Shown here piece by piece: positions 1,477-21,946 of a DNA stretch of 25,154 nt. Below the pieces are notes generated by a model that did not search any database, was not told the origin of the DNA, and saw only the letters and a list, made by a program, of their open reading frames with translations. The stretch is from a virus, in the IMG/VR virus record IMGVR_UViG_3300049226_000086, positions 1 through 25,154 of that record. The stretch is one strand, 5' to 3'. Within the stretch, counting starts at the first letter, position 1. Each line of letters starts with the position of its first letter. The position numbers and the translations under genes were made by a program.

Positions 1477-2064
1477 ATGGCAGATTTGATAACTTTAAAT
1501 GATTATAAGGATGCAGAGGGTTTAAGTACCCCTAAAGAAGACTTGCGGATAAATGCATTGATTCCATCCGTTAGTCAATTAGTAAAAACTTATTGTGGTA
1601 ATAGTTTTGTCGACTACTATTCTTCGGCAAAAACAGAAATTCTTAATATTGATTGGGGAACTCATATTGTACAACTAACTGAGAGCCCAGTTAATACAAT
1701 TACTAGTGTTCAGGAGCGTACTTCCTATAGCGGTTCTTATACTACTCTTACAACCGCAGCTCATGAATACTACTTAGAAACTAATACAGATAGTGTTCTA
1801 AGAACTACATCAGCAGGATATAAAAACTGGCCAACAGGAGTTGGAGCAGTTAAAGTGGTTTATACTGCCGGATGGAGTGCCACACCAAGTGACTTAAAAT
1901 TAGCAGTAATTGATTTATTGACATACTACTTAAAAGATGAACATAAATCTAGACAAACAATAGCAGGCGCTAGTATACAGAATCAATCCACTAGCGGACA
2001 ATTCAATAATGTCTCTTTCCCAGACCACATTAAGAGGGTTTTAGACCTATATAAGAACTTTTAA
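1477..2064 (+). CDS. Head-tail connector protein (HK97 gp6-like)
   Basis: Probable adaptor ring that sits under the portal and joins head to tail. The N terminus has the family pattern LITLNDYKDAEGL, then DLRINALIPSVSQLVKTYCG (about residues 22-41), the helical region that packs around the portal. The C terminus (about residues 140-195) is a helix, a polar loop (AGASIQNQSTSGQ) and a terminal PDHIKRVLDLYK helix, as in gp6/gp15-type connectors. Length (195 aa) fits. An in-frame TGA at 1471 fixes the start at or after 1477. No Shine-Dalgarno sequence is visible, and the ATG lies only 13 bases past the terminator's T tract, which is odd for an expressed gene. The stop overlaps the next start (TAATG). 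Confidence 0.72.
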   Translation: MADLITLNDYKDAEGLSTPKEDLRINALIPSVSQLVKTYCGNSFVDYYSSAKTEILNIDWGTHIVQLTESPVNTITSVQERTSYSGSYTTLTTAAHEYYLETNTDSVLRTTSAGYKNWPTGVGAVKVVYTAGWSATPSDLKLAVIDLLTYYLKDEHKSRQTIAGASIQNQSTSGQFNNVSFPDHIKRVLDLYKNF

Positions 2065-3491
2065 TGTCTACTAAAACGGTACGAAAGAACCTATCTAAAA
2101 ATCTATTAAAACTTCTTAATAGTGAAACAAATAAGGCAACCAGAAAAGGGGTTTCTAATCAAAAGCCTCAACTATTGTTCTTAGAAGATTTAGAATTTAT
2201 AAATGATACTATAAAAGAGCTTATTGAAAGAAAACATATTAGTAGCCGAACAAATACTTATATATTTGAAAAGCAACACCTAGAATGGGCTAGAGGTATT
2301 GCAGAGCATTATCAAGACTTTTATCTTAGAAATAATCAAACGTGGAAAGGTGGTAAAACTGATTTTGAAAACACTCAGGCCGGTATGTATTTAAAACAAG
2401 ACCATCCCAAGGAGTATAAGAAAATTATTGATGGAAAAGCCTTTATTATAAGTAGTTGGGGAGCATTAAGTAAGTGTAAAGAAGAATTAGTTAGAGGTTT
2501 GGTAGAAACTAGCGAAAAGCAGATGAAAGAAATCCTAAAAAGGATTGACCGAGGACACGGTGCTGGTAGTGGTATAGCTGTTTCTGGTATGCAACAAGCA
2601 ATGGCAGCTAATAAATTAAGTAAGTCTGTTACAGAAGAAGAGTTTAAAGAGCTGACAGGAGAATTTAAAAAGCATATTGATAATGCTTTTAAAACCGGAG
2701 AGATTACCGCTAAAGAGCGTAATCAAATAAAATCGGTATTTGTTGATTATAAAAATATTGTTAATCCTAAAACTGGGAAAGTAAAAACAGAATTTATTCC
2801 TTTTATTACTTTTCAAGATAAATATACAAATAGAGTTACAGATCGACAGAGAGAGAGTATAGTTCTTGACATAGTACGAGATTTCTTTAACAAAATGGGA
2901 GCCGGAGAGTTAGCGTCCATGGAAGGGTCTCCCTCAGTTAGAGATAAGATGTTTGCAGCGGCTATGCAACCTTGGTTGAATCATACATTTAAAGGGTTAA
3001 ACCCAAAGATTACATTTGATAAAAAGACAAATCCTAGAGGTATGAAGTATAAGACCGCGGGCAGAACCCGGCCAGAGAAACTCTCCGTTTTAGGCGGGGG
3101 ATCTCTTTCTCTAAGAAAGGCTAAAAAAGCGGTTATGCCCCCAACCAAAAAAGAAGAGCCCCAAAGATCAGGACTAAATATTACAGCAATTCTAGGATTA
3201 TTAAATCAAAAATTACCGCAGCAGGTAGCAAACAACATGGGGCCTCCTAGACTAGAAAATGTTACGGGTAGATTTGCACAAAGTGTACGTGCTACAGATA
3301 TAATGCAAACTCCTCAGGGCTTCCCAAGTATTGGATATACCTATGCAAAAGAGCCTTATCAAGTATATGAATCTACAAGTGGTAGTAGATTCTCGGACCC
3401 AATCAGGGATCCTAGACCTTTAATTGATGCGTCAATACGAGAAATAGTAGCACAGTTTGGATTGGGGCGTTTATATACTAGGAGACAATAA
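2064..3491 (+). CDS. Putative neck / tail-completion protein with unknown N-terminal part
   Basis: A soluble, basic 475-aa protein in the position where HK97-type phages encode the head-closure and tail-completion (gp10-type) proteins. The last ~95 residues (from about 382: LNQKLPQQVANNMG, then LENVTGRFAQSV, GFPSIGYTY, PYQVYE, and DPRPLIDASIREI) resemble tail-completion domains that accompany siphovirus necks, and I infer a neck role from this and from gene order. The first ~370 residues, including a charged helical section and a Gly-rich RGHGAGSGIAVSG stretch near residues 165-180, are not recognised. The protein is much longer than usual single-domain completion proteins, so it may be a fusion or carry an extra domain. 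It overlaps both neighbours by one base (TAATG at each end), indicating translational coupling. Confidence 0.5.
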   Translation: MSTKTVRKNLSKNLLKLLNSETNKATRKGVSNQKPQLLFLEDLEFINDTIKELIERKHISSRTNTYIFEKQHLEWARGIAEHYQDFYLRNNQTWKGGKTDFENTQAGMYLKQDHPKEYKKIIDGKAFIISSWGALSKCKEELVRGLVETSEKQMKEILKRIDRGHGAGSGIAVSGMQQAMAANKLSKSVTEEEFKELTGEFKKHIDNAFKTGEITAKERNQIKSVFVDYKNIVNPKTGKVKTEFIPFITFQDKYTNRVTDRQRESIVLDIVRDFFNKMGAGELASMEGSPSVRDKMFAAAMQPWLNHTFKGLNPKITFDKKTNPRGMKYKTAGRTRPEKLSVLGGGSLSLRKAKKAVMPPTKKEEPQRSGLNITAILGLLNQKLPQQVANNMGPPRLENVTGRFAQSVRATDIMQTPQGFPSIGYTYAKEPYQVYESTSGSRFSDPIRDPRPLIDASIREIVAQFGLGRLYTRRQ

Positions 3492-3943
3492 TGACGTCAA
3501 GAACTTATGCTTCAAAGAGAGCCAATATTGTTAATGCTCTTGTTACTAAGTTAAAGACAATTAATGGACAAGGAGCTTTCCTAACAGATGTAGGAGAAAA
3601 TGTACATCCTAGGCTTAAATTCTGGGATGAAATAGACGAGTTCCCCGCATTACATTTAAATGCGGGTAGCGAAACAAGAGATTATAGAACAGCAGGTGTT
3701 AGAGACAGGTTTCTAACTATAAGCATCAGATGTTATGTTCAAAATGAGGATGCCCAAGAGGCATTAAATGAGCTAATGGAAGATGTCGAAACCGTTGTTG
3801 AAGATAACTCACGATTAGCGTATACGGATAAACTAAATGCTGTCCACTATACGCAACAAATCACTGTAATTAGTATTGATACTGATGAAGGTGTACTCGA
3901 GCCTTTAGGTGTTGGCGAAATAACTATAGAGGTTCGTTATTAG
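3491..3943 (+). CDS. Putative tail terminator protein
   Basis: Expected to cap the top of the tail tube and to interact with the neck. The 150-aa protein has the usual layout of gpU/HK97 gp10-type terminators: an N-terminal helix (RANIVNALVTKLKTI), a loop with VHPRLKFWDEIDEFPALHLNAGSE (FPA and the Gly-x-Glu turn), a beta strand RFLTISIRCYV, a helix around EALNELMEDVETVVED and a final strand pair ending GEITIEVRY. Position directly before the tail tube gene supports it. A good Shine-Dalgarno (aggag at 3480-3483 region, 'ctaggagaca') lies just before the ATG, which overlaps the previous stop. No sequence search was possible, so other small neck proteins with the same fold cannot be excluded. 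Confidence 0.65.
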   Translation: MTSRTYASKRANIVNALVTKLKTINGQGAFLTDVGENVHPRLKFWDEIDEFPALHLNAGSETRDYRTAGVRDRFLTISIRCYVQNEDAQEALNELMEDVETVVEDNSRLAYTDKLNAVHYTQQITVISIDTDEGVLEPLGVGEITIEVRY

Positions 3944-4004
3944 AAAATTCTGGCACGAATAAATATTCACGACCAGTCTTTTCAAGATCATAGGAGATTA
4001 AACT

Positions 4005-5627
4005 ATGGCAGAATATTTACATTTTAGTAGAGATTCGCGGCTCTACATGGAAAAAGACGGGTATCTTTGGTCTATTCCGGTGCTTGATGGATTCAGTTTC
4101 TCCCAAGCAACAAATTCATCAGAGATTACGTTGAATGAAATGGAAGACTCTTCAGGTAGATCACGTAGAGGACGTAAGATGTTTACTGACTCTCTATCTG
4201 CAGCGGAGTGGTCTTTTAGTTCATATATACGACCCTTTAAATCAGCAGGATCAAAAGCGTATAATAATGGCGTAGCCGATAGCAGTGCTAATCATCAGCA
4301 CGCATGTGAAGAAGCCTTATGGGTAGCAATGGCAGGTAAAAATACATATCAGCCAACTACTGGTAAATTCAAGCATGGGTCAACTGGTGGTGCTATATCT
4401 AAAGTTGTAATCGCTTCAGGCGAAACTGATAGTGATAGAACAGCAGGAACTTATACTATTGCTGTACCTACGGCATCCTCAGGAACTAGTACCGGTGCTA
4501 CTGTAGCTTCTGGTTCCGGCTCAAATACCGGCGGAACAAACGCGGTAATATCAGTAGTTGTTAATGGTAGTGGTGTTGCAGACCCTACAGTTACTGAGAG
4601 AGGAATCGGGTTCGATACTGGTAATACAATTACTATTGATAGTGAACTTATTGGTGGCGGCGCTAATGATGATAATTTAGTTCTAACTGTAACTTCGGAG
4701 TCTTTTACTTCGGACGCAACTGATCTAGATATTAACTTTTACGATTCAAGTCGTGCATCATTAGGTACGTTTAACTTATACTATGTATTTAGTGATAGAA
4801 GTGCTGGTCGCTTACTCTATAAATTAGAGAACGCGGTTGTGAATGAAGCATCTATTGAATTCGATATAGATGGTATTGCACAAATTAGCTGGTCAGGAAT
4901 GGCGGGTCAAATCAAGGAAGTAGCAACAGGTTTAGGTGCAGGGCAGTATACTGCTCAAGATGCATTTCCAAATCCAAGCGCTGCAGGAGCAATTTGGATT
5001 GACACTAATGACAGTGATAAGTTTTATATGTCAACAAGTGCAACAAATGCGGCAGCAAGCTGGACTCAAGCTAGAGACGAAGGAACTACAGATACTGGAA
5101 ACTTTATCCGTAACCGACTAACTCAGTTAACACTAGCACCTGAGAGTACCTTCCAAACAGATACAACGTTTACTAATGCGGCAGGAAACTCTGACACATA
5201 TGAGACAAGTTATTCCGTTGCACTAACAGGTGGAAATGTTACAATTAGTAACAATATTTCTTACTTAACACCGGAAGAACTCGGTAAGGTTAACCAGCCA
5301 ATCGAGCACGTTGTAGGTACTCGTACAGTTACTGGAAGCGCTACTTGCTACTTAGCAAGTTCAGATGCTGCTACTAACCGAAGTCGTGACTTGTTCGCAG
5401 ATCTAGTATCTGACGTTAACACAGTTATTAACAAGTTTGCAATAACTTTGCAAGTCGGTGGAACAGATTCAACTAAGCCTAGGTTTACTATTGAATTACC
5501 CACTGCACACTTGGAGATACCAAGCCACTCTGTAGAAGATGTAATTTCACTAGAAACCAACTTCCATGGACTGGGCACAGGTGTAGGTGAAGCGGACGAA
5601 ATAACACTCAAGTACATTGGTGTATAA
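4005..5627 (+). CDS. Major tail tube protein with inserted decoration domains
   Basis: Forms the stacked rings of the tail tube. The N-terminal ~110 residues (RLYMEKDGYLWSIP, then FSFSQATNSSEITLNE and EWSFSSYIRPFK, then an ALWVAMAG segment) and the C-terminal part (SYSVALTGGNVTISNN, then PIEHVVGTRTVTGSATCYL and LEIPSHSVEDVISLETNFHGLG) look like the two halves of a tail tube beta-barrel. Between them, about residues 125-237 form a Gly/Ser/Thr-rich beta insert (GTYTIAVPTAS, GIGFDTGNTITID), and about 310-359 contain a second insert with an IWIDTNDSDKFY motif also seen in a fibre-region protein at 20382. At 540 aa it is far longer than a minimal tube protein, so the inserts probably decorate the tail surface. 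Start: ATG preceded by ataggaga. The C-terminal half shows optimised codons, as does the capsid gene. Confidence 0.75.
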   Translation: MAEYLHFSRDSRLYMEKDGYLWSIPVLDGFSFSQATNSSEITLNEMEDSSGRSRRGRKMFTDSLSAAEWSFSSYIRPFKSAGSKAYNNGVADSSANHQHACEEALWVAMAGKNTYQPTTGKFKHGSTGGAISKVVIASGETDSDRTAGTYTIAVPTASSGTSTGATVASGSGSNTGGTNAVISVVVNGSGVADPTVTERGIGFDTGNTITIDSELIGGGANDDNLVLTVTSESFTSDATDLDINFYDSSRASLGTFNLYYVFSDRSAGRLLYKLENAVVNEASIEFDIDGIAQISWSGMAGQIKEVATGLGAGQYTAQDAFPNPSAAGAIWIDTNDSDKFYMSTSATNAAASWTQARDEGTTDTGNFIRNRLTQLTLAPESTFQTDTTFTNAAGNSDTYETSYSVALTGGNVTISNNISYLTPEELGKVNQPIEHVVGTRTVTGSATCYLASSDAATNRSRDLFADLVSDVNTVINKFAITLQVGGTDSTKPRFTIELPTAHLEIPSHSVEDVISLETNFHGLGTGVGEADEITLKYIGV

Positions 5628-5629
5628 CC

Positions 5630-5673
5630 CCTTAAAAATAATTCTTGACATTGTTGGTGTTTTGAAATATAAT
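5630..5673 (+). promoter_or_regulatory. Consensus sigma70 promoter P1 with conserved upstream box
   Basis: TTGACA (5645-5650) and TATAAT (5668-5673) both match consensus perfectly and are separated by exactly 17 bases. An A-rich box CCTTAAAAATAA (5630-5641) sits three bases before the -35 hexamer. The same box, at the same distance, precedes the promoter at 19995-20023. Transcription should start near 5680, giving the second tube-like gene (5729) its own supply of mRNA. Confidence 0.9.
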
Positions 5674-5688
5674 ATGTAGGGTAAAGAG

Positions 5689-5710
5689 AAAGGGCTCTTT
5701 TGAGCCCTTT
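5689..5710 (+). terminator. Hairpin just downstream of promoter P1 (terminator-like)
   Basis: aaagggctc (5689-5697) pairs perfectly with gagcccttt (5702-5710) around a TTTT loop. The A/T ends of the stem give the look of a bidirectional intrinsic terminator, but the tail beyond the stem (atcatatgac) is poor in T. Transcription from P1 would form this hairpin within the first ~30 bases. It may stop read-through from the tube gene, or remain at the 5' end of the P1 mRNA as a stabilising cap; the sequence alone does not decide. Confidence 0.7.
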
Positions 5711-5728
5711 ATCATATGACGGATTGAA

Positions 5729-6859
5729 ATGGCAAATTTTAGATTTTTAAAAGAAGCAAGCCTATATGTCGTTTACGGCAGTAATAAGTATAAGCTAGAT
5801 ACGAACGAAATTAGCTTCAGTCAGTCATTTAAAGAAAAAAGTTACGAAGTAAAAACTATACAAGAGCAGTCAAGTTTTGAAGGGTCTGTAATAAATGAAG
5901 CAAATCCTGCAAATTTTAGTTTCAATGTACCTTTATTAAAAGAAGTACGAAACAAAGTCGTAGTAGATAGATTAATTGATTGCGAATCATTTGACTTGTA
6001 TATATCAACCGAGCAAGATGTTCTAAAACTGCAGAAATGTGTTATTCAAGATGGGACTTTCGAGATTAATAAATCTAGACCCCTGAGATTAGCAGTATCG
6101 GGTGAGGCATCTAAGCTATCAAATTATACTGGAACGATACCTGGTACTCTTCAGAATACCACCGTAACCGCCAGTACATATACATTGGCTACTATAGATA
6201 CTCTCACACTAGGTGGAGAGGATGTATCCTCAGACGTAGTAAGTCTGACCGTAGAGTTACAAAATGATATAGAGTGGAATAAGTACAATACACTTCAAGG
6301 TACTTATAGTACGACTAGTGCAAGCACCTCAATGTATCCAAGTAATTATACAATAGGTACCAGAATGTTAGGCGGAACAATTACCAAATACTTAAAAGAT
6401 GATGCTATTTTAGATTGGGGTGTAGATAAAGAATTAACGCTAACTTTAGGCGACAATGTAGGAGGGACTGTTACCTCTGTAGCCGTAACAAGCGGAGGAG
6501 GTAGCTATAGTTCCGCTCCAGCAGTCACCATTAGTGGTGGCGGTGGATCTGGAGCAACTGTAACGGCAACATTAAATGGGGCCTCAGTTTCTGGGTTAAC
6601 AATAACCAACCCAGGTACTGGATATACTAGTAATCCTACTCTTACTATTGCTGGACCTACAATGGGAGGAAGTGGTTCAACTGCAACAGGAACTGCAACT
6701 ATATCCTCTGATGTAGTCTATGGTATAGGGTTTAATGTTAGTAAATGTTCGTATACCTTACGTTCCCAGGCGGGTGCGGTATTTGGAAGCGAATATAATT
6801 GGCGCATGACGTCACAACCGGCCGCGCTTTCGAGCGTAATAGAATATACAACTTATTAG
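5729..6859 (+). CDS. Second tail-tube-like protein (paralogue of the 4005-5627 product)
   Basis: A 376-aa protein whose first ~75 residues follow the same pattern as the preceding tail tube protein: a short strand with an aromatic (SLYVVYGSNKYKLD), then ISFSQSF, a polar strand (YEVKTIQEQ), and ANFSFNVPLLKE in place of EWSFSSYIRPFK. About residues 244-327 are a Gly/Ser/Thr-rich beta segment with two similar halves (SGGGSYSSAPAVTISGGGGS and GTGYTSNPTLTIAG), a repeat style frequent in marine phage virion proteins. I infer a minor tube or tail-end ring protein that arose by duplication. It has its own promoter (P1) and upstream hairpin. The ribosome site before the ATG is weak (gacggat). A tail-tip or chaperone-like role cannot be excluded. 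Confidence 0.6.
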   Translation: MANFRFLKEASLYVVYGSNKYKLDTNEISFSQSFKEKSYEVKTIQEQSSFEGSVINEANPANFSFNVPLLKEVRNKVVVDRLIDCESFDLYISTEQDVLKLQKCVIQDGTFEINKSRPLRLAVSGEASKLSNYTGTIPGTLQNTTVTASTYTLATIDTLTLGGEDVSSDVVSLTVELQNDIEWNKYNTLQGTYSTTSASTSMYPSNYTIGTRMLGGTITKYLKDDAILDWGVDKELTLTLGDNVGGTVTSVAVTSGGGSYSSAPAVTISGGGGSGATVTATLNGASVSGLTITNPGTGYTSNPTLTIAGPTMGGSGSTATGTATISSDVVYGIGFNVSKCSYTLRSQAGAVFGSEYNWRMTSQPAALSSVIEYTTY

Positions 6860-6862
6860 GAG
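6858..6862 (+). promoter_or_regulatory. Ribosome binding site fixing the start of the chaperone gene
   Basis: AGGAG at 6858-6862 overlaps the stop codon of the previous gene and lies 11 bases before the ATG at 6874. It favours 6874 over the longer in-frame ATG at 6799, which would overlap the upstream gene by 61 bases and has no such site. Confidence 0.75.
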
Positions 6863-6873
6863 TAAAGATAGAT

Positions 6874-7326
6874 ATGGAATTAAAACAATTAGTAGTCGAT
6901 AGTAAGGCAATGTGGATAGATTTTGCTGGCCTCGACGGGTTTTCAATAGAGATTGCTAATCTCTCACGAAAAGAATTAACAGGTATACGAAAAAAGTGTA
7001 CCACTTCAAAATTTAATAGAAAAAGCAGACAAATCGAAGAAGTATTAGACGATGATAAGTTTGTAAGAGAGTTTACCAAAGGTACAATAAAAAATTGGAA
7101 GGGATTATCACTTGAACACTTAGAAACCTTACTGCTTATTGATGCAGGAGATACAGATAAGAGCGAAGAAGTGCCCTATAGTAGAGAAAATGCGGAAATA
7201 TTAGTATCTCAATCCACTGAATTCGATACATGGCTCAACGAGGTAGTCTTTGATTTAGAAAACTTTCGTGATAAGCCAAAGGGAGAAGTGCCTAGAAAGA
7301 CTGGAAGAACTGTTCAAAAACCTTGA
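6874..7326 (+). CDS. Tail assembly chaperone (lambda gpG-like)
   Basis: A 150-aa acidic, mostly helical protein between tube and tape measure genes, the place where siphoviruses encode the chaperone that coats the tape measure during tail assembly. It starts MELKQLVVDSKAMWIDFAGLDGFSIEIANLSRKEL, continues with a charged helical section (KKCTTSKFNRKSRQIEEVLDD), and has the WKGLSLEHLETLL segment near residues 71-83 typical of such chaperones. The reading frame ends at a TGA (7324-7326) inside the start of another frame (7259-7654) that continues with protein-like sequence. This is the classical G/GT arrangement, where a minority of ribosomes change frame and make a longer fusion. The basic tail FRDKPKGEVPRKTGRTVQKP belongs to the unshifted form only if slippage occurs early in the overlap. 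Confidence 0.7.
   Translation: MELKQLVVDSKAMWIDFAGLDGFSIEIANLSRKELTGIRKKCTTSKFNRKSRQIEEVLDDDKFVREFTKGTIKNWKGLSLEHLETLLLIDAGDTDKSEEVPYSRENAEILVSQSTEFDTWLNEVVFDLENFRDKPKGEVPRKTGRTVQKP
7259..7326 (+). other. Candidate programmed frameshift region (G to T)
   Basis: The upstream frame is open to 7326 and the downstream frame is open from 7259, so the switch must happen in these 68 bases. The frames differ by +1 (equivalently -2), not the commoner -1. Candidate sites seen: UUU-C at 7264-7267 (tRNA-Phe can slip +1 to UUC), GAGAA at 7283-7287 (GAA slipping -2 to GAG), the A5 run 7316-7320 (AAA slipping -2 to AAA), and CCU-UGA at 7321-7326 (a +1 shift at a stop codon). I cannot choose among them by eye. 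Confidence 0.6.
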
Positions 7327-7654
7327 TGCTGGTTTAACTCCCGACCGGTACTTTGATATGCAAGACCAGATGGGGTTAGAGATAGAGGTAGAAGAAATAC
7401 CCCCAGAATTGAATGATTTTCCAGAAGACGTACTAAGTGCGGTAGGTATATTTGGACGATTAGGAGATAGAGTATATCCTGAAATTGGTTATATAGGAAA
7501 AGACTATATTTTATTAAATGAGTTAATGCCATTATATACAATAAATGACAAAAACTTTTTCCTAGAAGTTTTACAGTGGCTAGATGCCAGAGCTATCAAA
7601 CAATCCGCAGAGCAATTAAAGCGGGAGTATGATAAAATGAAGAGAAGACACTAG
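7268..7654 (+). CDS. Tail assembly chaperone extension (lambda gpT-like, made by frameshift)
   Basis: The T-type part of a G/GT chaperone pair; in the lambda family this domain binds tail tube subunits and recruits them to the chaperone-covered tape measure. The frame opens at 7259; the first possible independent start is GTG 7268, with no ribosome site before it, and the first in-frame ATG (7358) also lacks one, so production by frameshift from 6874 is more likely. Recognisable text: LTPDRYFDMQDQMG, then EIEVEEIPPELNDFP, LGDRVYPEIGYIGKDY (about residues 65-80), and a C-terminal FLEVLQWLDARAIKQSAEQLKREYDKMKRR helix. A fusion from 6874 would be about 260 aa. The stop overlaps the tape measure start (TAGTG). 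The GDRVYPEIGYIGKD pattern is reminiscent of other marine phage tail regions, from memory only. Confidence 0.65.
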   Translation: MISQREKCLERLEELFKNLDAGLTPDRYFDMQDQMGLEIEVEEIPPELNDFPEDVLSAVGIFGRLGDRVYPEIGYIGKDYILLNELMPLYTINDKNFFLEVLQWLDARAIKQSAEQLKREYDKMKRRH

Positions 7655-10600
7655 TGGCAAATGAAATCACTTTTAAAGTTAAACTTACTGATGATGGTGG
7701 GTTAAAAGTTGTTGCTAAAGAAGCGGACAAGGCTTCTAAAGCAACTGATAAACTTGGTAAATCTACAGAAACTTTAAATAGAGCCCGAAATAGAAATAAT
7801 AAAATTGAAAAGGGTGTTGGTCAATCAGGTCTTTCTACAGCTAAGGGATTCTCTAAACAAGCAGGTGCGATAACTGGCGGTCTTGTTCCTGCCTATGCGG
7901 TTCTTGCCGCACATATTTTTGCAATTACAGCAGCCTTTAATACTTTAAAAAATGCGGCTCAAGTCGGTATTTTAGAAGAGGGTTTCGCACGCCTAGGTAA
8001 TACTGTTGGTAGAACCTCAGATTTAATGGCTAGTAGGTTAAAAGATATAACTAACGGTGCCATATCTACAGAGCAGGCGTTGAGAAGTGCCTCTGCCGGT
8101 TTCTCGGCAGGAATGTCCACAGCAGAAATGGAAGGATTGGCAAAAATTGCTAAAGGTGCTTCCATTGCTCTTGGTAGAGATTTAGGCGATGCTTTAGACA
8201 GGCTTATACGAGGTACTGCAAAGTTAGAGCCAGAAATTTTAGATGAATTAGGTCTTTTTATAAGATTAGATGATGCAGCCGCAGATTACGCCATAACTTT
8301 AGGAAAAACTGCAAATCAATTAACACAGACGGAGAAACAGCAAGCGTTTCTAAATGCAGCGTTAGAGCAGGGCGAGAGAAAATTTGGAGCAGTACAAGAT
8401 ATAGATACTAATCCTTTTAATAAACTTGCCGCATCTTTCAAAGAATTAGCAGAGAATATTCTACAATTCATTAATGTAGGTGTGATTCCTTTCATGAATA
8501 TACTATCTAATAATGCCATGGCATTAGTAGGAGTTTTGATTCTGTTTGGAAATACTGTTTTGCAAAAAATGGTTCCGGCTTTACATGAGATGGGAGAAAA
8601 GCAATTAGAGGTTGCTGAAAAAGCAAAAAAAGCCGCCCCCGCTTTAAAAAAGGTAACTAGAGAAGCTATTAGGACGGAAGAAGCTGCAATTAAAATGGCT
8701 AAGGTAAAAGCCGGTAAAAATACTATTTTTTCTCAATTACAAGGAAAGATAGGGGCTGGCAAAGGTAGTGCGAAAGATATAGAAAAGTCTATTACGTCTT
8801 TGAATGCCTCTATTAAAAAACGACAAGCACACGCTAAGAAAACAGGGGTGGTAGTTAGTGCGGAGTATAAAAGAGAGACGCAACAGTTAATAGAGTTAAA
8901 AGCACATTATGTAGAGTTAGCAGCACTAAGAAGAGGTGCTAGTAAGAAGTCTGCCACAACAGCCTTAGATATTGGTGCGGGTGGGGCAGAAGGACAAGTA
9001 ACAAAAACCATGAGTGCAATAGAGGAAGGCGGAGCAATGGCAAGTATAGGTATTGCTACGGACGGTTTTAAGAAATTTAAAGAAGAGATAGACGGTACCG
9101 ATGAAAAAACAGAAAAGTTTACCAAAGGTGCTAGTAAAATGGGCAAGGCAAATATAGCCCTTAAAAAGGGTTTACTTGTTGCTAGCGGTGCAGTAAGAAT
9201 ATTTGGTATGGCTTTTATGAAGTTTGTCCCGTTTCTTGGCTGGGCAGTATTTGCTATAGGGTTACTAGTAGCTGCGTTTAAAAAGTTATTTATGAGCAGT
9301 GATAAAGCAAAAACACCTTTACAGGAGTTAAATACGGTTGTAGATACCATGCCTGAAAAATATAAGCAATTAGGAGAAGCTATTCAGAAGTCCAACGATA
9401 GAATGGCTGTCGCTGCTACTGAGCAGGCCAAATCCGTAGAAAGAGGATACCAAATTGGACAGGCTTGGGGTGTTGCTGATGGAGTTCTTACGGAAGTAAC
9501 CCAGTCCTACGCAAAATTTAGTGCAGAACTTCAAAAGACAGATATAGGCATACTCGGTATACTTTTAGGGTATTTTACACGATTCGCAGAATTTTTACGC
9601 AGTCTCCCAAATCTATTAGACGCAGCTGGTGAAAAGTGGGATTCATGGACAACGCGGATAACAAGCTCTGCTATATGGAAGGCCGCCGCCGCTGCTATTC
9701 AAGGACCTATGACAGCAGCAGGAGACGCAATAGATTCCGTTTTAGATCCGCAAATAGACGCTACAAAAATTGCTAACGCAACCGGCCCTTTCAGAGATAC
9801 TTTACAAGCCATGATAGATAATGGTGGCCCTGCTAAGAAAGTTCTTGAAGATATGTTTTCGAAAGCGGGGGTCTCGGGTGTACAAGAATTTATAGACAAA
9901 ATTAAAGAGTCAAATACTGTAGTAAAAGTAAATGGTAAAGTATTAAAAGGTTCAGAGAGGATAATTCACTTATATAATAAAGCTTTAAAGGATGCAAAAA
10001 CAGAAACAGGAGCCATGGTTGACGCAACAAAGGGTTTTGAAAAAGCTCTAATTGAGCAAGGTAAGAAAACAACAGCATTTTTTAGTAGTTTAAACTCAAA
10101 AGATAAATTTCAAGGTCTTTCAAATGAATTAGTACTACTTTCCGGGAATATTGATAAATCTGTTGCAACTCTAGAGAAGCAAGGGGTACAAGCTGATGTT
10201 ATTTCTAAAGTTTGGAAAGATGCAGGTAACTGGTTACAAAAATATGGTATTAGTCAAGCAGACCTTGAAAGTCAAGGTGGAGCAGCGCTACAACCTCTTA
10301 TTGATGGGGCAAACAGAGTAGTAGATGCAACTGCTAACGCTAAAAACCAAATTCAACTATTAAATGCTAGTTTAAAAAGTATAAAGCTTGATGATAAGCT
10401 TGATAAAGCCCGACGCATGAATAAGCAAATGACTGAAACCCTTATCAAAACAGGAAAGTGGGAAACAACTGTAGCACAAGATGCAAAAAATATTAAAGAA
10501 GATCGAGAGGCAGCTAGATCACTGGCGGAAGCCGAATTCGGTATTAAGGTAGCTATAATAACCCTAGAACAAGAACTTTTACTTGCAAAAATTGAGTTCC

Positions 10601-11985
10601 AACTGCAGGACAAAACCCTTAGTCAGGGGCAAATTGACGCGCTCACAACACAGAGAGATATTGTGGAAGCAATGGGCATGATGAAAGTGCAAGCAGCAGA
10701 AAAAGAAAGAGATCTAGCATTAGAGACCGCAGATATTACTGCCAAATCAGCGGGTGCAGGTTTAAAAGATAAAGCTCTTACAGAAATGGGTGGGGCATCA
10801 AATCAGGGACAAAAAGCACTAAAATTTAGTGAGCAGGCGGCATCGGGTGCATTTAGTGCAGCTACTTCCGCACTGCCTGACGATGCCACTGACGATCAAA
10901 AATCCATGGCCAAGTTAACAGATTCTAGATCCCAGTTAGAGGGGTTGAAAGCATTAACAAGCGATACTATGGAGCAGCTAAAGCAGTTAGGACCTGAAGG
11001 GGAGCTAATAGCAGCAGCAACAGAAGGAGCTTATGCAATAGGTGATGCCTGGATGGAAGCAGCTATCACTATTAAGGATGGCGCGCAGGGTATGGAAAAA
11101 GGCGCAGCTATAGCTGGTGCCATCGCTACAACTATAGGACAAATTGGTAATATAATGGCAGCAGCTTCCAAAGCACGAATAGCGGGAGTTGATAAAGAAA
11201 TAGAAGCAGAAAAGAAAAGAGATGGCAAGTCAAAAGAAAGTTTAGCAAAAATAAACGCGCTCGAAAAGAAAAAAGAAGCAATGAAGAGAAAAGCTTTCGA
11301 GCAAAACAAAAAAATGCAGATGGCTCAAGTTATTGCCAATACTGCAGCAGCAATAATGGGATTATGGTCAGGAATTAAAGACCCTTACGTGGGTCCAGCT
11401 TTAGCTACTGCCCAGATGGCAGTAGTAGGAGCGTTAGGTGCTGCACAATTAGCTGTTATTGCAGGTACGTCCTATCAGGGAGGAGGTAGTGTATCTCAAC
11501 CTTCCGGACCCTCCGGTATTGCCGTAGGTAAGAGAAGGGAATCAACTGATTTAGCCAAATCACAATCAGCTCGAGGAGAGCTAGCATATTTCCGTGGAGA
11601 TCAAGGAATAGGCGGACCGGAAAACTTTAGAGCCGCTTTCTATGGTAAGAAGCATAGGGCTTACGGAGGAAATGCAGGATACATAGTTGGGGAACAAGGT
11701 CCGGAACTATTTATGCCAGATCGTCCAGGTACTATTGTTCCTGCCGACGATACTGCAGAAATGGGAGCAGCCTCAAATGTGGTATTTAATATTAATACTA
11801 TAGATGCCTCAGGAGTTGAAGAAATGTTAGAAAGTCAACAAGGAAATATTATAGGAATGCTTAGATCGGCAGCAAATGCATATGGAGAAGATTTTATGGA
11901 ATCAGTAGATGAAACTTCAATGATTTCACCCACGGTTTCATCCTACGGAGGCCCTCAAGGGTCAGCACACAGGCGGAAAAGATAA
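7654..11985 (+). CDS. Tape measure protein
   Basis: Sets tail length and takes part in DNA ejection. By far the longest gene of the tail shaft (1443 aa), following the chaperone frames, Ala/Lys/Gly-rich and helical throughout. It starts with the usual strand and helix (ITFKVKLTDDGGLKVVAKEADKASKATDKL). Hydrophobic segments lie at about residues 72-97, 272-302 and 505-545 (FVPFLGWAVFAIGLLVAAF), suited to inserting into the host membrane. A lysine-rich coiled coil occupies about 1178-1225 and leads into a hydrophobic Ala-rich run. The C terminus carries GGNAGYIVGEQGPELFMPDR (about 1339-1358), a motif very common at tape measure ends. At about 0.15 nm per residue it predicts a tail near 215 nm. 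Start is GTG overlapping the previous stop. No lytic transglycosylase or peptidase motif was recognised. Confidence 0.92.
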   Translation: MANEITFKVKLTDDGGLKVVAKEADKASKATDKLGKSTETLNRARNRNNKIEKGVGQSGLSTAKGFSKQAGAITGGLVPAYAVLAAHIFAITAAFNTLKNAAQVGILEEGFARLGNTVGRTSDLMASRLKDITNGAISTEQALRSASAGFSAGMSTAEMEGLAKIAKGASIALGRDLGDALDRLIRGTAKLEPEILDELGLFIRLDDAAADYAITLGKTANQLTQTEKQQAFLNAALEQGERKFGAVQDIDTNPFNKLAASFKELAENILQFINVGVIPFMNILSNNAMALVGVLILFGNTVLQKMVPALHEMGEKQLEVAEKAKKAAPALKKVTREAIRTEEAAIKMAKVKAGKNTIFSQLQGKIGAGKGSAKDIEKSITSLNASIKKRQAHAKKTGVVVSAEYKRETQQLIELKAHYVELAALRRGASKKSATTALDIGAGGAEGQVTKTMSAIEEGGAMASIGIATDGFKKFKEEIDGTDEKTEKFTKGASKMGKANIALKKGLLVASGAVRIFGMAFMKFVPFLGWAVFAIGLLVAAFKKLFMSSDKAKTPLQELNTVVDTMPEKYKQLGEAIQKSNDRMAVAATEQAKSVERGYQIGQAWGVADGVLTEVTQSYAKFSAELQKTDIGILGILLGYFTRFAEFLRSLPNLLDAAGEKWDSWTTRITSSAIWKAAAAAIQGPMTAAGDAIDSVLDPQIDATKIANATGPFRDTLQAMIDNGGPAKKVLEDMFSKAGVSGVQEFIDKIKESNTVVKVNGKVLKGSERIIHLYNKALKDAKTETGAMVDATKGFEKALIEQGKKTTAFFSSLNSKDKFQGLSNELVLLSGNIDKSVATLEKQGVQADVISKVWKDAGNWLQKYGISQADLESQGGAALQPLIDGANRVVDATANAKNQIQLLNASLKSIKLDDKLDKARRMNKQMTETLIKTGKWETTVAQDAKNIKEDREAARSLAEAEFGIKVAIITLEQELLLAKIEFQLQDKTLSQGQIDALTTQRDIVEAMGMMKVQAAEKERDLALETADITAKSAGAGLKDKALTEMGGASNQGQKALKFSEQAASGAFSAATSALPDDATDDQKSMAKLTDSRSQLEGLKALTSDTMEQLKQLGPEGELIAAATEGAYAIGDAWMEAAITIKDGAQGMEKGAAIAGAIATTIGQIGNIMAAASKARIAGVDKEIEAEKKRDGKSKESLAKINALEKKKEAMKRKAFEQNKKMQMAQVIANTAAAIMGLWSGIKDPYVGPALATAQMAVVGALGAAQLAVIAGTSYQGGGSVSQPSGPSGIAVGKRRESTDLAKSQSARGELAYFRGDQGIGGPENFRAAFYGKKHRAYGGNAGYIVGEQGPELFMPDRPGTIVPADDTAEMGAASNVVFNINTIDASGVEEMLESQQGNIIGMLRSAANAYGEDFMESVDETSMISPTVSSYGGPQGSAHRRKR

Positions 11986-12755
11986 TGGCTTTTATGGATA
12001 TATTACCAGATCCTATTTATAAAAGGAGTTATTGGGGTAAAGAGGATGGTACTGGAGATCAGCCCGGGCCTGGTTTCGCGTCCGTTAGTGTCACTTCTGA
12101 TCAAGAAATGATGGTTACTAGAACTAATTCACAAAGAGTTATATCTAGGGCGTCAGCAGGACATAAATGGAAAATCAGTATAAACTATAATCCTATGACA
12201 CGAGAGGAGTTTGAGCCCGTTAATTCTTTTTTACACATGCAAAGAGGTCCTCTTACCCCCTTCAAAGTTTCTTTGCCCCAGTACAGGAATCCTAGAAACT
12301 CTGCTTTCAGTACAAATAACTATAAGAACAACTTTCAAGTTGATGGTAGTCATATAGCAGGGCGGCAGTACTTAAATATGAATAATACAAATAATAGTTA
12401 TGTACTTACAGATGCTGATGGGGCTACAGTTACTAATACAAATAAGATCCCAACAAATATTCCTGCAGAGGGCGATGCTCTCACAATAACAGATTCTAAT
12501 AACTCTAATCATACAAAAACATATTTGGTTACATACGTTGAAACTTATTATGTCTATCATAGTACACAACCTGCTTCCGCAAAAACTCTACGAGTAGGAA
12601 TACATCCTCCCTTAACAAAAACAGTGAGTGATAATGCTGATATTGTATTTTCTCCTGTTTTATTCAAAGTTATTAAACCAAATGCTGTAAGTACTTATTC
12701 TTTAGGTACTGATAATTTATTTAAGTTCAAGTTACAGCTAGAAGAATATTTATGA
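11985..12755 (+). CDS. Putative distal tail / minor tail protein
   Basis: A 256-aa protein between tape measure and tail hub, where siphoviruses encode distal tail proteins (Dit, lambda gpM/gpL). The first ~110 residues contain ISRASAGHKWKISINYNPMTREEFEPVNSFLHMQRGPLTPF, resembling the beta-sandwich of minor tail proteins whose central region measures out a short surface segment ('LHMQRG..PF'). The rest (about 120-256) is Asn/Thr-rich beta sequence ending FKFKLQLEEYL. I infer the ring connecting tube and hub. It overlaps the tape measure by one base (TAATG) and the hub by four (ATGA), so its translation is linked to both. Lambda-type gpK/gpI proteins are absent from this gap, so the tip is simpler than lambda's. 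Confidence 0.6.
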   Translation: MAFMDILPDPIYKRSYWGKEDGTGDQPGPGFASVSVTSDQEMMVTRTNSQRVISRASAGHKWKISINYNPMTREEFEPVNSFLHMQRGPLTPFKVSLPQYRNPRNSAFSTNNYKNNFQVDGSHIAGRQYLNMNNTNNSYVLTDADGATVTNTNKIPTNIPAEGDALTITDSNNSNHTKTYLVTYVETYYVYHSTQPASAKTLRVGIHPPLTKTVSDNADIVFSPVLFKVIKPNAVSTYSLGTDNLFKFKLQLEEYL

Positions 12756-15700
12756 GTACACGTGATATAGATACAAAAGTACAAGCATCCCTCCTCGCGG
12801 GGGATTCTTTTGAGTACGCTCATTTAGTAAAATTTGAGCGTGTTATAAGCACAGTCTCCTCAAAACCTTCAGAATCATCCACAGATTACTCTTATATCAC
12901 AGACGCATCTATAGATATAGCATGGGATGATGGTAGTGCGGATGTTCAAGGAAACTCTAATGGTAGCCAGACGTATATCTCTAATAGACTTACTAAGGTT
13001 GGAGGTATAAACGAAACTACTGCAGCGAAATCAACAACTCTAAGCCTGGGAGTTTCTTCAGTAGCTTTAGGGTCTTCAATTCAAGCAGGTAATAGTGATC
13101 GAGTAACTTTAACCCCTGCTGGTAGTAGTTATCCGTATACTGCTACTATAGAAATGGTAGATGCGAATGATCCTTGGGATGAGAGAGGCTTTTCTGAAGG
13201 AGACAAAATCAAAGTCTCCCATAGTACCACTACTAATACATGGCATAATGTTGACCTAACTATTGACAGATTTACTAATAATAACAGAACCGCCCATTGT
13301 ACGATTGTAGCAAATGAAAAACCCTCTACTACCATTTCCAATGATCAAGGAAACATTACAATAGATCTTGATACTGATGAGATATCTGCTATTCTTAATG
13401 ATCCCACTGATTCCACTTACGCAGGATATATTAATAGGGAAGTATTCATTTATAAAGCACATATTAATCCCAATACTGGAGAATTAATTGGGAATAGTGC
13501 AACCTCAGGACCTTACTTAGTTTTCAAAGGTATAATAGCGAAAGTAAAACTTTCAGAAGATCCCACTAAAAATTCTACAGTAACATGGTCGTTAACAAGT
13601 CATTGGGGAGACTTCGTCAGGGTAAGTGGTCGAGTCACTTCAGATGCTGAACACAGAGCTTTAGGTACAAATGGCGAACCAGATGCTAATGCATTACACA
13701 GACATGAGTACGCTGGGGATTTAGGATTTATGCATGGTGAACAAGCAATTAATATAATTGCTATTTATCAAGTCATGGAAACTAGGTACAAGATGAAGAG
13801 TTCTGGTTTATTTGGCTTAAAGAAAAAGATGGTCGAATACCAAGTTGAGGTTGATAGAGATGTTGATTTACGATTAAATTTAGAAGCCAAAGCCCTTCCT
13901 GTAATATACGGTGTTAATAGAGTTGATAGTATTCCTGTCTTTGCTGATTCTAAGTATAATGATGCCGCAATGATTTATGTAATATATGCAATATGTGAGG
14001 GTGAAGTAAGTGGTATTTATGATATTTATGTGGATGATCAATCACGTATTTGTGTAGATAAAAATGATTCTGATACTAGAGCAACCCAGACAGGTGATGA
14101 AACTATTGATGTAATTTGTGAGGGAAGAATGGATAGAGGAGATACTCTTAGTTCTTCGGCATCTTCTAGTCGTCAACAATCCAACTCTGACTTTTTAAAC
14201 ATGGGTAGTTGGTCTATATATGGACAAACAGGGATAGGTCGTATTAATGGTCGAAGATTCGGAGTTAATAATGCCCCTATAGAAAACCCTAATTCTGATG
14301 CCGGAGTGACTCATGAAAAGCAAACTCTTTTACAATATCCAATTAAATCTAAACTAATTTTTCATGCAGGACGCTCACACCAACGCTCTGATGATTTAAT
14401 CACTACTATTGCGGAGGCGGGAAAAGCCAATGTTAATAATGGATTCAAATTACAAGGAGATTTAGATTATAAAGAGAACTACTGGAGTGCTAATCATAGA
14501 TTATTAGATACTGCATATGTGGTAGCAGAGTATGAAATAGCAGAAGGAGATGTTACTATCCCTACGCTAGATTTTGTTATGCGAGGAAAGGAAATAGAGC
14601 AATACAACTATGACTACTCCTATAGAGCGGAACCTGGTACTGCTTATGATGCTACTAAGAGAGCCCTTTATCCTATTGGCTCTACTGTTGATTTTTATAA
14701 GACGGATGGTACTGCATTAGCACAAAACGTTCAAATTGTAGACTCCTATAAATACATTAATGCCAGAGAAGAAGAAATCTGGAAATACCGTTTTAGTCAA
14801 GATCCAATCACAATAGCAGGAACTACTGAATTCCGTATGGTTCTAGATGGAGTAGACTATGACCATGCTAATCATTATAAAATGGTTACCTGGGATCATA
14901 AATCTGCAACAGGTACAGTAACTAAAACCCTACGAAAAGCCGTAACTACTAATTCAAGTGATGGAAATGCTACAGTCACTGCCACTGGAGGTAGTTCTAC
15001 TGATGGTATAACTATTACTCCTGCGGATCAAGAATTACGAGATTGGATTACTTATTTATCCGGTTTAGCCGGTACTACTGTTGTATTTCAAATATTTGGC
15101 ACAACGCTCACAGCAGATGACCTACTAAATACATTAGCACAATTACAGTTAGACAGTGGAGGAGATAACCCTAATGTAACTGGTGGTTCTGGCTCTGAAG
15201 TAATTTCTGGTGCTGGAAACACTACTACAGATATGGATAAGATTACTCATCTACTTATTAGTAATGCTTGTTATATAGGAGGTTCTCAAACTACAGATGA
15301 CTTCTATAAAGGTCAAATAATAAAAGTTACACAATCAAATCCAGATGGAAGTGTTAAAACTCAAACCAGAGAAATAATCGGGTACGATGGTAGTACAAAA
15401 ATAGTTTATACAGGTAGTTTAAGTCCTATTGAAAGTAATTCACAATCTATAGGTACTTATACTGTTCCTGCGTATACGGTAAACTCTACTACGGTAGTAC
15501 TGAATAATGTTACTAACATACCTACTCCTTCTAATTCTGTTAAATTAGTTATCTCAGGTGAGCAATATGCTACTTCAATACCTAATGGTACTCAAATTAC
15601 AGGCGTAAATACAACTACTAAAACACTAACGTTGAATCAAGCCTGTAGTTTTGGTGCTGGTTCTAGCATTACTGTTTATAAATCAAATAATGCTGGTTCT

Positions 15701-19396: not shown

Positions 19397-19407
19397 GAAA
19401 TAACTAA

Positions 19408-19974
19408 GTGAGACAAGTTGAGCAAAGTCCGATCGGAATATGGTCGGGAGAATTAGATGAGGAAACTTGCGATAGAATAATAGTTGAGGGACAACTACTA
19501 GAGCAAGAAAAAGCAACCGTATACGGCGATAAGACTGTAGATACTACTACTCGGGATAATGTAGTTGGGTGGTTTCCTAGAGATTCATGGGTAGATAGAC
19601 TTTTATTTTATTACGCACATACAACCAATGAATTAAATAATTGGAATTTTAATATAAATGATAGAGAACAAACCCAGTTTACCACCTACGGTGAAGGCGA
19701 TTTTTATAAGTGGCATAGAGATTGCAGTATTAAAAGCGATATATATAGAAAACTATCTATAACTGTACAGTTATCCAATACTAATGATTATTCAGGAGGT
19801 GAATTTAGACTAAAAGATTGTTGGGGAAATAATGAAATAGATATTACTGAAAGAGGTATGAAGAGAGGTACTATTTTAGTTTTTCCGTCTTTTTTGTTGC
19901 ATCAAGTGGAACCAATAAGAAGTGGGATGCGTTATTCTCTAGTACAGTGGTACAGCGGCCCTCCTTTTACATAA
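19408..19974 (+). CDS. 2-oxoglutarate/Fe(II)-dependent oxygenase
   Basis: A 188-aa protein with the double-stranded beta-helix of 2OG-Fe(II) oxygenases, the superfamily that includes prolyl 4-hydroxylases. Metal ligands are H103 and D105 (KWHRD) and H165 (FLLHQV), and R175 (SGMRYSLVQW) would hold 2-oxoglutarate. The conserved GGEFRL strand (130-135) and RGTILVFPSF (153-162) lie between, and all core positions are present, so it is probably active. It would hydroxylate a protein or small molecule using O2 and 2-oxoglutarate; the substrate is unknown. Start is GTG 19408 with aggaa (19395-19399) at good spacing; the gene begins 11 bases after the tail hub stop, so it belongs to the tail-tip transcript. 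The hub's collagen-like region is an obvious substrate candidate, by inference from position only. Confidence 0.85.
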   Translation: MRQVEQSPIGIWSGELDEETCDRIIVEGQLLEQEKATVYGDKTVDTTTRDNVVGWFPRDSWVDRLLFYYAHTTNELNNWNFNINDREQTQFTTYGEGDFYKWHRDCSIKSDIYRKLSITVQLSNTNDYSGGEFRLKDCWGNNEIDITERGMKRGTILVFPSFLLHQVEPIRSGMRYSLVQWYSGPPFT

Positions 19975-19979
19975 TACCA

Positions 19980-20023
19980 CCTTAAAAATAAAACTTGACT
20001 ATTTATGTCCTTTGAGATATAAT
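19980..20023 (+). promoter_or_regulatory. Sigma70 promoter P2 with conserved upstream box
   Basis: TTGACT (19995-20000; one mismatch) and TATAAT (20018-20023; perfect) are 17 bases apart. CCTTAAAAATAA (19980-19991) precedes the -35 hexamer by the same three bases as in P1, and both share TTTGARATATAAT at the -10 end. Start near 20030 gives a leader of only about 14 bases carrying tggaga as ribosome site for the gene at 20044. Confidence 0.88.
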
Positions 20024-20043
20024 TTCAACATGGAGAAATATAC

Positions 20044-20382
20044 ATGACCGCAGCAACATATGACTTAGTGATCGACCAAGGCTCCGACTTTGCCATTGAC
20101 TTGACAATTACAGAGGGAGGATCGGCTAAAAATCTTACTGGCTACTCAGGCAGGGCCCAGCTGCGTACAACCCATGCTGCTTCTAGTGCTACGGCAAGTT
20201 TTACCGTATCTGTAGTTAATGCCACAAATGGAACAATGAAAATGGAAATGCAAGCATCCACCACTGCAGGTATTGCTGCAGGTAGGTATGTATATGATTT
20301 AGAAATTCACACTTCTGGGGACGCTACTGTAAAAAGACTTATACAAGGGAGCGTGACAATAAATCCAGAGGTAACTAGGTAA
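20044..20382 (+). CDS. Small beta-sandwich virion protein (baseplate/fibre-adaptor type)
   Basis: A 112-aa all-beta protein: YDLVIDQGSDFAIDLTI, then NLTGYSGRAQLR (about 31-42), a strand ending SFTVSVVNATNGTMKMEM, and GRYVYDLEIHTSGDATVKRL with a final GSVTINPEVTR. The 'QGSDF..NLTGYS.RAQ.R...G.Y.YDLEI' layout resembles the N-terminal domain of baseplate upper proteins and short structural proteins found in many marine phages. I infer that it attaches fibres to the tail tip. It is the first gene behind promoter P2, with ribosome site tggaga 9 bases upstream of the ATG. Its stop overlaps the next start (TAATG). Confidence 0.55.
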   Translation: MTAATYDLVIDQGSDFAIDLTITEGGSAKNLTGYSGRAQLRTTHAASSATASFTVSVVNATNGTMKMEMQASTTAGIAAGRYVYDLEIHTSGDATVKRLIQGSVTINPEVTR

Positions 20383-20798: not shown

Positions 20799-20817
20799 GG
20801 ATAATTCGGAGTTATAA

Positions 20818-21933: not shown

Positions 21934-21946
21934 TAGGGGACAGTAA

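Follow-up and report, generated by a model that had tools for sequence, protein, structure and literature searches.

A conserved family of putative sigma-70-type promoters in uncultured T5-like phages and its pairing with a terminator-like hairpin behind the major tail protein gene

The window analyzed here, i.e., the whole 25,154-base length of IMG/VR virus record IMGVR_UViG_3300049226_000086, carries two 44-base sites, P1 (positions 5630 to 5673) and P2 (19980 to 20023), which probably act as strong promoters of the host sigma-70 type written in a dialect of the T5 promoter; according to this explanation, in which we place good though not full confidence, P1 restarts transcription after a terminator behind the major tail protein gene and P2 starts the fiber transcript. 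The two-site motif is real and well conserved, and it appears to represent a new dialect of a known kind of promoter. The main interest lies less in a two-copy motif than in a module whose promoter and hairpin occur in interchangeable order, together with predicted leaderless starts.

RESULTS

A probable tail-module fragment of an uncultured T5-like phage

Long open reading frames on the plus strand tile the window. By comparison with PHROGs, their products comprise a head-tail adaptor, a tail terminator, the major tail protein, a second tail tube protein, two tail assembly chaperones, the tape measure, a distal tail protein, a 2OG-Fe(II) oxygenase, and fiber-type or unknown proteins; the fiber matches of a 2214-aa protein were weak, and no PHROGs family was found for the products of 1-1392, 2064-3491, and 20382-20798. 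When the major tail protein and the tape measure were used as tblastn queries, 903 and 907 phage records were matched, respectively, with 30 to 34% identity among the 20 matches listed for each, and the records opened from these matches were T5-like (Demerecviridae) phages. A match to the T5 capsid (29% identity) lies within the window, matches to terminase and D5 were found in its relatives, and T5-type tail, head, and packaging proteins, which speak for Demerecviridae-like membership, are present across the window and relatives. No match to A1, A2, or T5.026 was obtained by tblastn in the group's fragments, which are incomplete. Megablast of bases 1-25000 against 50,697 phage records returned zero matches. 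Given the T5-like protein matches and the lack of a megablast match among these phage records, the window appears to be a tail-module fragment of an uncultured T5-like phage. In IMG/VR, 538 stretches encode a relative of one of the group's tail proteins.

From the metagenome bins, and from marine phages among the matches of a 112-aa gene described below, we infer that the phage group is marine. Scanning metagenome-bin contigs for the motif gave at least 118 stretches, 16 of which had a tblastn match to the group's ORF products; among the 80 listed, many belonged to Clostridia-type bins. Clear pieces of the group's phages were seen in bins assigned to Halieaceae (L195), Parcubacteria (L224), Euryarchaeota (L236), and Bacteroidetes (L247 and L251). 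Since the pieces are scattered over such unlike bacterial and archaeal bins, the bins do not tell the host, and host assignment from bin taxonomy was dropped.

Separately, the two tail chaperone frames of the window (6799-7654) overlap, at 7268-7326 as listed. This overlap could represent a programmed frameshift, which occurs at the tail chaperones of other tailed phages.

Two sites with a shared 44-base architecture

P1 and P2 have exactly the 44-base architecture that the initial annotation described, i.e., an A-rich box, a three-base gap, TTGAC, and TATAAT at a common spacing. With up to 3 mismatches allowed, the pattern occurs in the window at these two places only, and 100 shuffles of the window yielded a mean of 0.00 matches, with no shuffle having two. 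P1 is indeed the full TTGACA-17-TATAAT consensus (12/12), P2 matches it at 11/12 positions, and the two rank first among the 45 promoter-like sites listed in 3000-22000, a total below the shuffled mean of 56. With +1 placed 7 bases past the -10, the elements are as follows.

5634..5640, plus strand: P1 A-box AAAAATA, at -46 to -40 with +1 at 5680; (nearly) invariant in 69 distinct P1 junctions
5644..5650, plus strand: P1 conserved C and -35 hexamer TTGACA, from sequence and P1-site conservation
5668..5673, plus strand: P1 -10 hexamer TATAAT, from sequence and P1-site conservation
19984..19990, plus strand: P2 A-box AAAAATA, from sequence and P2-site conservation
19994..20000, plus strand: P2 conserved C and -35 hexamer TTGACT, from sequence and P2-site conservation
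20018..20023, plus strand: P2 -10 hexamer TATAAT, from sequence and P2-site conservation; predicted +1 near 20030

A promoter family in relatives

The motif search that the initial annotation had called for found the exact 44-base pattern in 21 other IMG/VR stretches, in which the downstream sequences vary and include tail genes and early-type genes; a phage promoter family, as had been proposed, is present in relatives and ahead of other genes. Because this search demands the box, three box-free approaches were added, based on relatives of the 112-aa gene that follows P2, on core sites in 11 records, and on the junctions behind the major tail protein gene. Protein relatives of the 112-aa gene were found at 24 loci, one of which (L113) starts inside the promoter; the exact core TTGAC-N18-TATAAT lies upstream of the gene in all 23 relatives with enough DNA, about 73 bases further away in L127 and L129 than in the others. 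With the window included, these make 18 distinct P2 sites, in which AAAAAT is invariant and A is found at -40 in 16.

The core scan covered the window, records reached via the 112-aa gene (G001, G003, G004, G005, G007, and G009), and records reached via the motif (G011, L006, L015, and L021). Exact cores in these 11 records have 6 to 7 of the 7 box bases in 42/49 cases and C before TTGAC in 44/49, and an A-run at -11 to -7 before TTG is present in 37 to 47 of 48 distinct core sites. A box of at least 6 was found in 0/15 N17 cores with up to 1 mismatch, and a box in 1/9 N19 cores and 4/20 N18 cores with one mismatch. One region of this set, L135:1-4000 (G003), is GC-rich by eye, has another promoter type with 17- to 18-base spacers lacking the full box, and is possibly foreign or chimeric.

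In a whole-record search of 11 records (9 via the 112-aa gene, L005 and L012 via the motif), the pattern AAATANNNCTTGAC-N18-TATAAT with up to 2 mismatches gave 50 matches distributed over 11/11 records, and its reversed form gave 0. Five cultured T5-like genomes gave 9 matches to the family pattern in all, each with 2 mismatches, and because of this near absence the family appears to be a dialect of the present phage group.

In the 69 distinct P1 junctions, the anatomy reads AAAAATA at -46 to -40, TC at -37/-36, TTGAC, T at -22, T at -17, and then the -10, which by column counts is TATAAT in 35, TATACT in 29, and TAGAAT in 5 (the variants with one mismatch each). The -35 is TTGAC in 69/69 P1 and 18/18 distinct P2 sites. 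Of the 12-base box in the initial annotation, AAAAATA plus the C before TTGAC is conserved, but CCTTAAAAATAA as a whole, including CCTT, is not kept in relatives. The spacer had been called unconserved; it contains T at -22 in 66/69 and T at -17 in 68/69 distinct P1 sites, and the same bases in 17/18 and 18/18 distinct P2 sites, respectively.

That P1 and P2 might be a chance pair or a recent duplication has nothing in its favor except the low copy number in the window. Two matches were obtained in 0/100 shuffles, exact copies lie in 21 further IMG/VR stretches, and the sites are kept at orthologous junctions across diverged phages; this reading is already refuted, and we assign it a negligible probability.

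Box promoters at early-type and late genes

Promoters with the box precede both NAD ligase subunits (A and B), a phrog_1725 DNA-binding protein, and DNA polymerase, and also the terminase small subunit, an HNH-like gene, and the 112-aa gene. The notion of a special late-operon promoter does not hold, since early-type genes, among them those for DNA polymerase and ligase A and B, have the box as well; being found at early-type and late genes, it is no late-gene mark, and a late-specific role was ruled out.

The base after TATAAT is A in 19/19 early-type and T in 15/15 late-type sites excluding P1 (Fisher 5e-10, relatedness ignored), in groups that were defined after the sequences had been seen, with phrog_4258, phrog_4593, and kin counted as early by neighborhood and with sites of unclassed downstream genes left out (G001 78063; G003 1268, 1445, 1827, 3766, and 3981; G004 24030, 40420, 40456, and 43108; G005 13137, 39974, 40470, and 40901; L015 8863 and 10073). 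A rule by which A after the -10 means early and T means late fails in 50 distinct terminase sites among the matches listed, where A occurs in 14, C in 3, and G in 3. The dinucleotide AT follows the -10 in 16/19 early-type sites, 0/15 late-type sites excluding P1, 0/50 terminase sites (among the matches listed), and 47/69 P1 sites. P1 mostly has an early-like discriminator, AT, and it is possible that AT is a timing mark with P1 as the exception. In T5, according to a published account, the discriminator is the main difference between early promoters, where it is ATATT, and late ones (PMC7472727).

The initial annotation left two options for the A-rich box, an UP element or a regulator site. 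Its position favors the former, and the latter retains some probability: AAAAATA at -46 to -40 occupies the place of the proximal UP subsite, an A/T-rich stretch at about -46 to -38, with +1 set 7 bases past the -10. On the plain reading, the A-box would be such a subsite, presumably contacted by the alpha C-terminal domain of the polymerase. Two reports fit this reading, one describing as critical the adenines at -41 to -43 in the proximal subsite of rrnB P1 (PMC4390567) and the other an AT-rich AAAAATT near -43 in promoters of the T5-like phage AKFV33 (PMC3326045). Against it, a generic UP element would not require so uniform a box (T at -41 in 64/69 P1 sites), and this near-invariance may leave room for a dedicated protein. 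No conservation of a distal UP subsite was seen among P1 and P2 sites.

Such a protein could be a phage-encoded or phage-recruited activator whose binding site is the AAAAATA box, perhaps with TC, in place of a plain UP subsite. We consider this unlikely while taking it seriously: AAAAATA and the C at -36 are near-invariant in the 69 P1 and 18 P2 distinct sites, the distance from box to -35 is fixed at one turn, the dialect is almost missing from the five cultured T5-like genomes, and the early region contains a gene for a D5-like regulator. However, a box at early-type and late genes alike cannot alone set timing, and the A-block of T5 is similarly regular; moreover, T5 early and late genes have sigma-70 promoters, and all three T5 gene classes are transcribed by host polymerase with sigma-70, as stated in the T5 account cited above (PMC7472727).

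Promoter and hairpin behind the major tail protein gene

The region around P1 contains the following features.

4005..5627, plus strand: major tail protein gene, 540 aa (phrog_3575, E 1e-44; T5-like matches), with P1 directly downstream
5689..5710, plus strand: terminator-like hairpin AAAGGGCTC-TTTT-GAGCCCTTT in the P1 leader; the tail from the GC stem is TTTATCAT; fold z -3.27
5729..6859, plus strand: second tail tube gene, 376 aa (phrog_3889 base plate tail tube protein, E 1e-13, residues 5-185), after P1 and the hairpin

The window's major tail protein has 34 relative loci; 11 have a match short of the gene end or reach the contig end, and in the remaining 23/23 a promoter lies close behind the stop codon with a hairpin behind the promoter. 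For the G001 major tail homologue, the best 80 of 538 relatives were taken, 5 were dropped as the gene end or downstream DNA was missing, and the promoter is present in all 75 that remain. The pooled set numbers 100 junctions, 69 of them distinct, and includes the window and L012 (motif-derived). A P1-type promoter follows the major tail protein gene in 69/69 distinct junctions, each with 10 to 11 of 11 core bases (best place within 110 bases), 5 to 7 of 7 box bases, and the C. The next gene encodes a chaperone in 47 junctions and the second tube protein in 21, and one was not assigned. Extra transcription of the second tube gene, the purpose first suggested for P1, is not supported, on two counts: P1 trails the major tail gene whichever gene comes next, and in the window it is directly trailed by a conserved terminator-like hairpin, which is absent from the initial annotation. 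A set of 80 loci obtained with the second tube protein as the query was set aside, the best matches falling within residues 138-360, a repeat-like part.

Under a rule of a perfect stem of -6 kcal/mol or better, a hairpin was found in 68/69 junctions, before the promoter in 33, after it (as in the window) in 35, and on both sides in 0, the last figure partly reflecting lack of room, with hairpins within the upstream coding sequence outside the search; L378 is the sole junction in which the hairpin is absent. Stem pairing was a search condition and hence is no separate proof of selection. Random 62-mers from the same loci contained a hairpin in 140/1887 cases, and a hairpin whose tail was no less U-rich than that of the weakest after-promoter hairpin in 10/1887, each junction having been searched in up to two stretches.

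The 35 after-promoter hairpins represent 27 different sequences, and most of those before the promoter read GGGGC-UUCG-GCCCC or a closely related sequence. Median U-tract scores were 4.66 before versus 3.01 after the promoter (p 2e-10, relatedness ignored). A quick tree built from the tail protein, with long branches for L012, L360, L376, and L377, implies 5 changes of order, 4 of them forced by well-supported branches. Among 4 independent pairs, on average 2.5 had the weaker U-tract in the after-promoter form, 0.0 showed the opposite, and 1.4 were equal, which is not significant. The U-tract of the window hairpin is weak, and a simple terminator scan omits this hairpin. With a terminator-score formula, the window hairpin scored 4.5 and after-promoter leaders scored above 0 in 20/22 cases; the same formula gave at least 19.8 for 12 of 17 annotated T5 terminators, the other 5 scoring 4.6 or less or being missed. 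At gathering thresholds, Rfam gave no match.

Might the hairpin after P1 be a 5' leader element, protecting the RNA from decay or marking a processing site, and not a terminator? It begins 5 to 22 bases past the -10 in the 35 after-promoter junctions, near the predicted 5' end of the P1 RNA, and the short U-tracts and the omission from the terminator scan would agree. Nevertheless, 33/68 hairpins precede the promoter, where they cannot lead P1 RNA and where the U-tract is strong, and the after-promoter tails are U-rich as well, all scoring at least 2.16, a level reached by few of the random 62-mers (10/1887); we judge this alternative improbable.

As a terminator, the preferred reading, the hairpin would lower readthrough from the major tail protein gene, and P1 would initiate new transcription of the chaperone, tape-measure, and tip genes. 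On this reading, the window's terminator would lie within the first ~35 bases of the P1 RNA and lower both upstream readthrough and P1 output, which fits its weak U-tract; after-promoter U-tracts tend to be weak, as if tuned to pass P1 transcripts. Since the two parts occur together in either order, their job would be independent of order, namely, to cut readthrough and restart, and the best reading is that the terminator and restart promoter set tail protein dosage.

We also weighed a regulated attenuator, or a source of an RNA of ~35-40 bases, with late readthrough via an antitermination factor. The AT discriminator, found in 47/69 P1 sites as in early-type sites and in none of the late-type sites excluding P1, and the closeness of a terminator-like hairpin (within 35 bases) to a strong promoter would suit it, but there is no Rfam match, the before-promoter layout is that of an ordinary restart promoter, and L012, with a different leader, has T at the discriminator position; its probability is quite low. 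In a compact attenuator, P1 would fire throughout infection into a terminator less than 35 bases away, yielding short RNA or idle polymerase early and readthrough only late. This is very doubtful; if true, one pair of parts would act as either a constitutive dosage switch or a regulated one, their order having switched about four times or more.

P2 and the fiber cluster

Downstream of P2 lie the following features.

20032..20035, plus strand: GGAG, likely Shine-Dalgarno of the 112-aa gene, between P2 and the start in relatives except L127 and L129
20044..20382, plus strand: 112-aa gene (phrog_1084; phrog_3304, L-shaped tail fiber assembly), first gene after P2; 24 relatives

P2 lies just downstream of the oxygenase gene in the window, and in relatives without a tblastn oxygenase match there it still lies ahead of the 112-aa gene. 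P2 appears to be an ordinary strong promoter opening the fiber cluster, with a leader of ~14 bases if +1 is at the predicted 20030. A short upstream frame at this +1, ATG GAG AAA TAT ACA TGA (20030-20047), with a stop that overlaps the 112-aa gene's start, was rejected as a candidate element, not being conserved in relatives.

Some P2 relatives have symmetries of their own. In the subgroup L007, L013, L016, L018, and L019, a palindrome, TTGACATAGAATGTCAA, is made up of the -35 together with the spacer; an inverted repeat of type TGGCTAGA..TCTAGCCA, which may be an operator or an mRNA end, stops a few bases before the box. At L141:13137 (G005, plus strand), the 2OG-Fe(II) oxygenase gene and the 112-aa gene are oriented divergently, and the oxygenase gene has its own box promoter (5/7).

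Predicted leaderless terminase mRNA

In 50/50 distinct terminase small-subunit genes among the matches listed, the ATG lies 6 to 7 bases past the -10 of a box promoter; the set (L386-L465) has at least 80 loci, 77 of which were examined and 3 of which had too little upstream DNA. At 19 terminase loci that were translated, the protein is conserved from residue 1, and an in-frame stop lies within 20 codons upstream in 15. The simplest reading is that the terminase small-subunit mRNA is leaderless, as predicted from these positions; one such locus is at L134:13646-14104 on the minus strand. Starts 6 to 7 bases past the -10 were also noted, by mechanical gene calls, at G003 3981 (L135), G004 37422, 40456, and 43108 (L139 and L140), G005 40470 (L143), and L006 2042, the predicted genes including ligase A in L006.

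DISCUSSION

Altogether, the sites would be read by the main (sigma-70-type) RNA polymerase of the host, which would recognize the A-box in the UP position, C-TTGAC, 18 bases, and TATAAT, the A-box contacting the alpha C-terminal domain. Promoters of this family would drive early and late genes; P2 would start the fiber-cluster transcript ~14 bases ahead of the 112-aa gene.

The signature AAAAATA-N-TC-TTGAC-N18-TATAAT marks putative transcription starts in a large uncultured phage group and should make operons and start codons readable from contigs alone. The module of reversible order offers a natural experiment on the ratio of abundant to scarce tail proteins, and the terminase gene, if its mRNA is leaderless, would provide a conserved example of leaderless translation in a lytic gene. 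Among the matches listed in a literature search that most subscription journals lie outside of, no fitting paper was found on a marine Demerecviridae promoter motif or on a leaderless terminase.

Comparison with known systems

Like the proximal subsite of the UP elements of rrnB P1 and phage Mu Pm, the box is an A-rich stretch just upstream of the -35; unlike them, the group has one near-fixed sequence with T at -41 and no conserved distal subsite. The resemblance to T5 is broader. The annotation of T5 gives 47 promoter stretches, of which 35 that show the -10 clearly were chosen, 12 were left out (including late PJ5, which has the -10 TATACT), and 34 were aligned; an A-run at -10 to -7 before TTG is present in 29 to 33 of the 34. 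T5 sigma-70 promoters (PN25, PD/E33, P11, and late PG25) share with the group an A-run one turn upstream of the -35 in the same register and 18 bases from TTGNN to TATAAT (19 in 3/34 of T5), they serve early and late genes, and late promoters lie within the T5 tail operon (PG25 and PJ5). In contrast, the -35 is mostly TTGC in T5 and TTGAC in the group, the box is AAAA-W-T in T5 and AAAAATA-NTC in the group, and the group's pattern is nearly absent from T5 and four relatives. Because the -35 is TTGAC rather than TTGC, we would file the family as a variant of the T5-type promoter, not the T5 promoter proper.

The attenuated late promoter pR' of phage lambda is followed by the terminator tR'. P1 in the window resembles pR'-tR' in that a promoter precedes a terminator-like hairpin; the distance between the two is much shorter in the group, however, and any antiterminator in the group would be a hypothetical one.

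In the window, a further GC hairpin, GGGGGAGG-AGATC-CCTCCCCC then AAGTTTTT, at 1436-1456 behind the capsid-like gene, is terminator-like with no box promoter, and a putative terminator is likewise annotated downstream of the T5 capsid gene. The module itself resembles the T5 junction at PG25, from the tape-measure gene to T5.139, where a terminator hairpin and then a restart promoter lie between tail genes; Slocum and River4 (by eye) similarly have a terminator and then a promoter behind the tape-measure gene. It differs from the T5 type in that the order of the two parts can be reversed and in its place, the gap behind the major tail gene being 4 to 14 bases in T5, phi 3, River4, Torridgeon, and Slocum, too short to hold a promoter. 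With such gaps, and with the T5 break behind the tape-measure gene, the break of this group sits at a different junction; the group thus seems to have moved the stop and restart of tail transcription to another junction than that used by T5.
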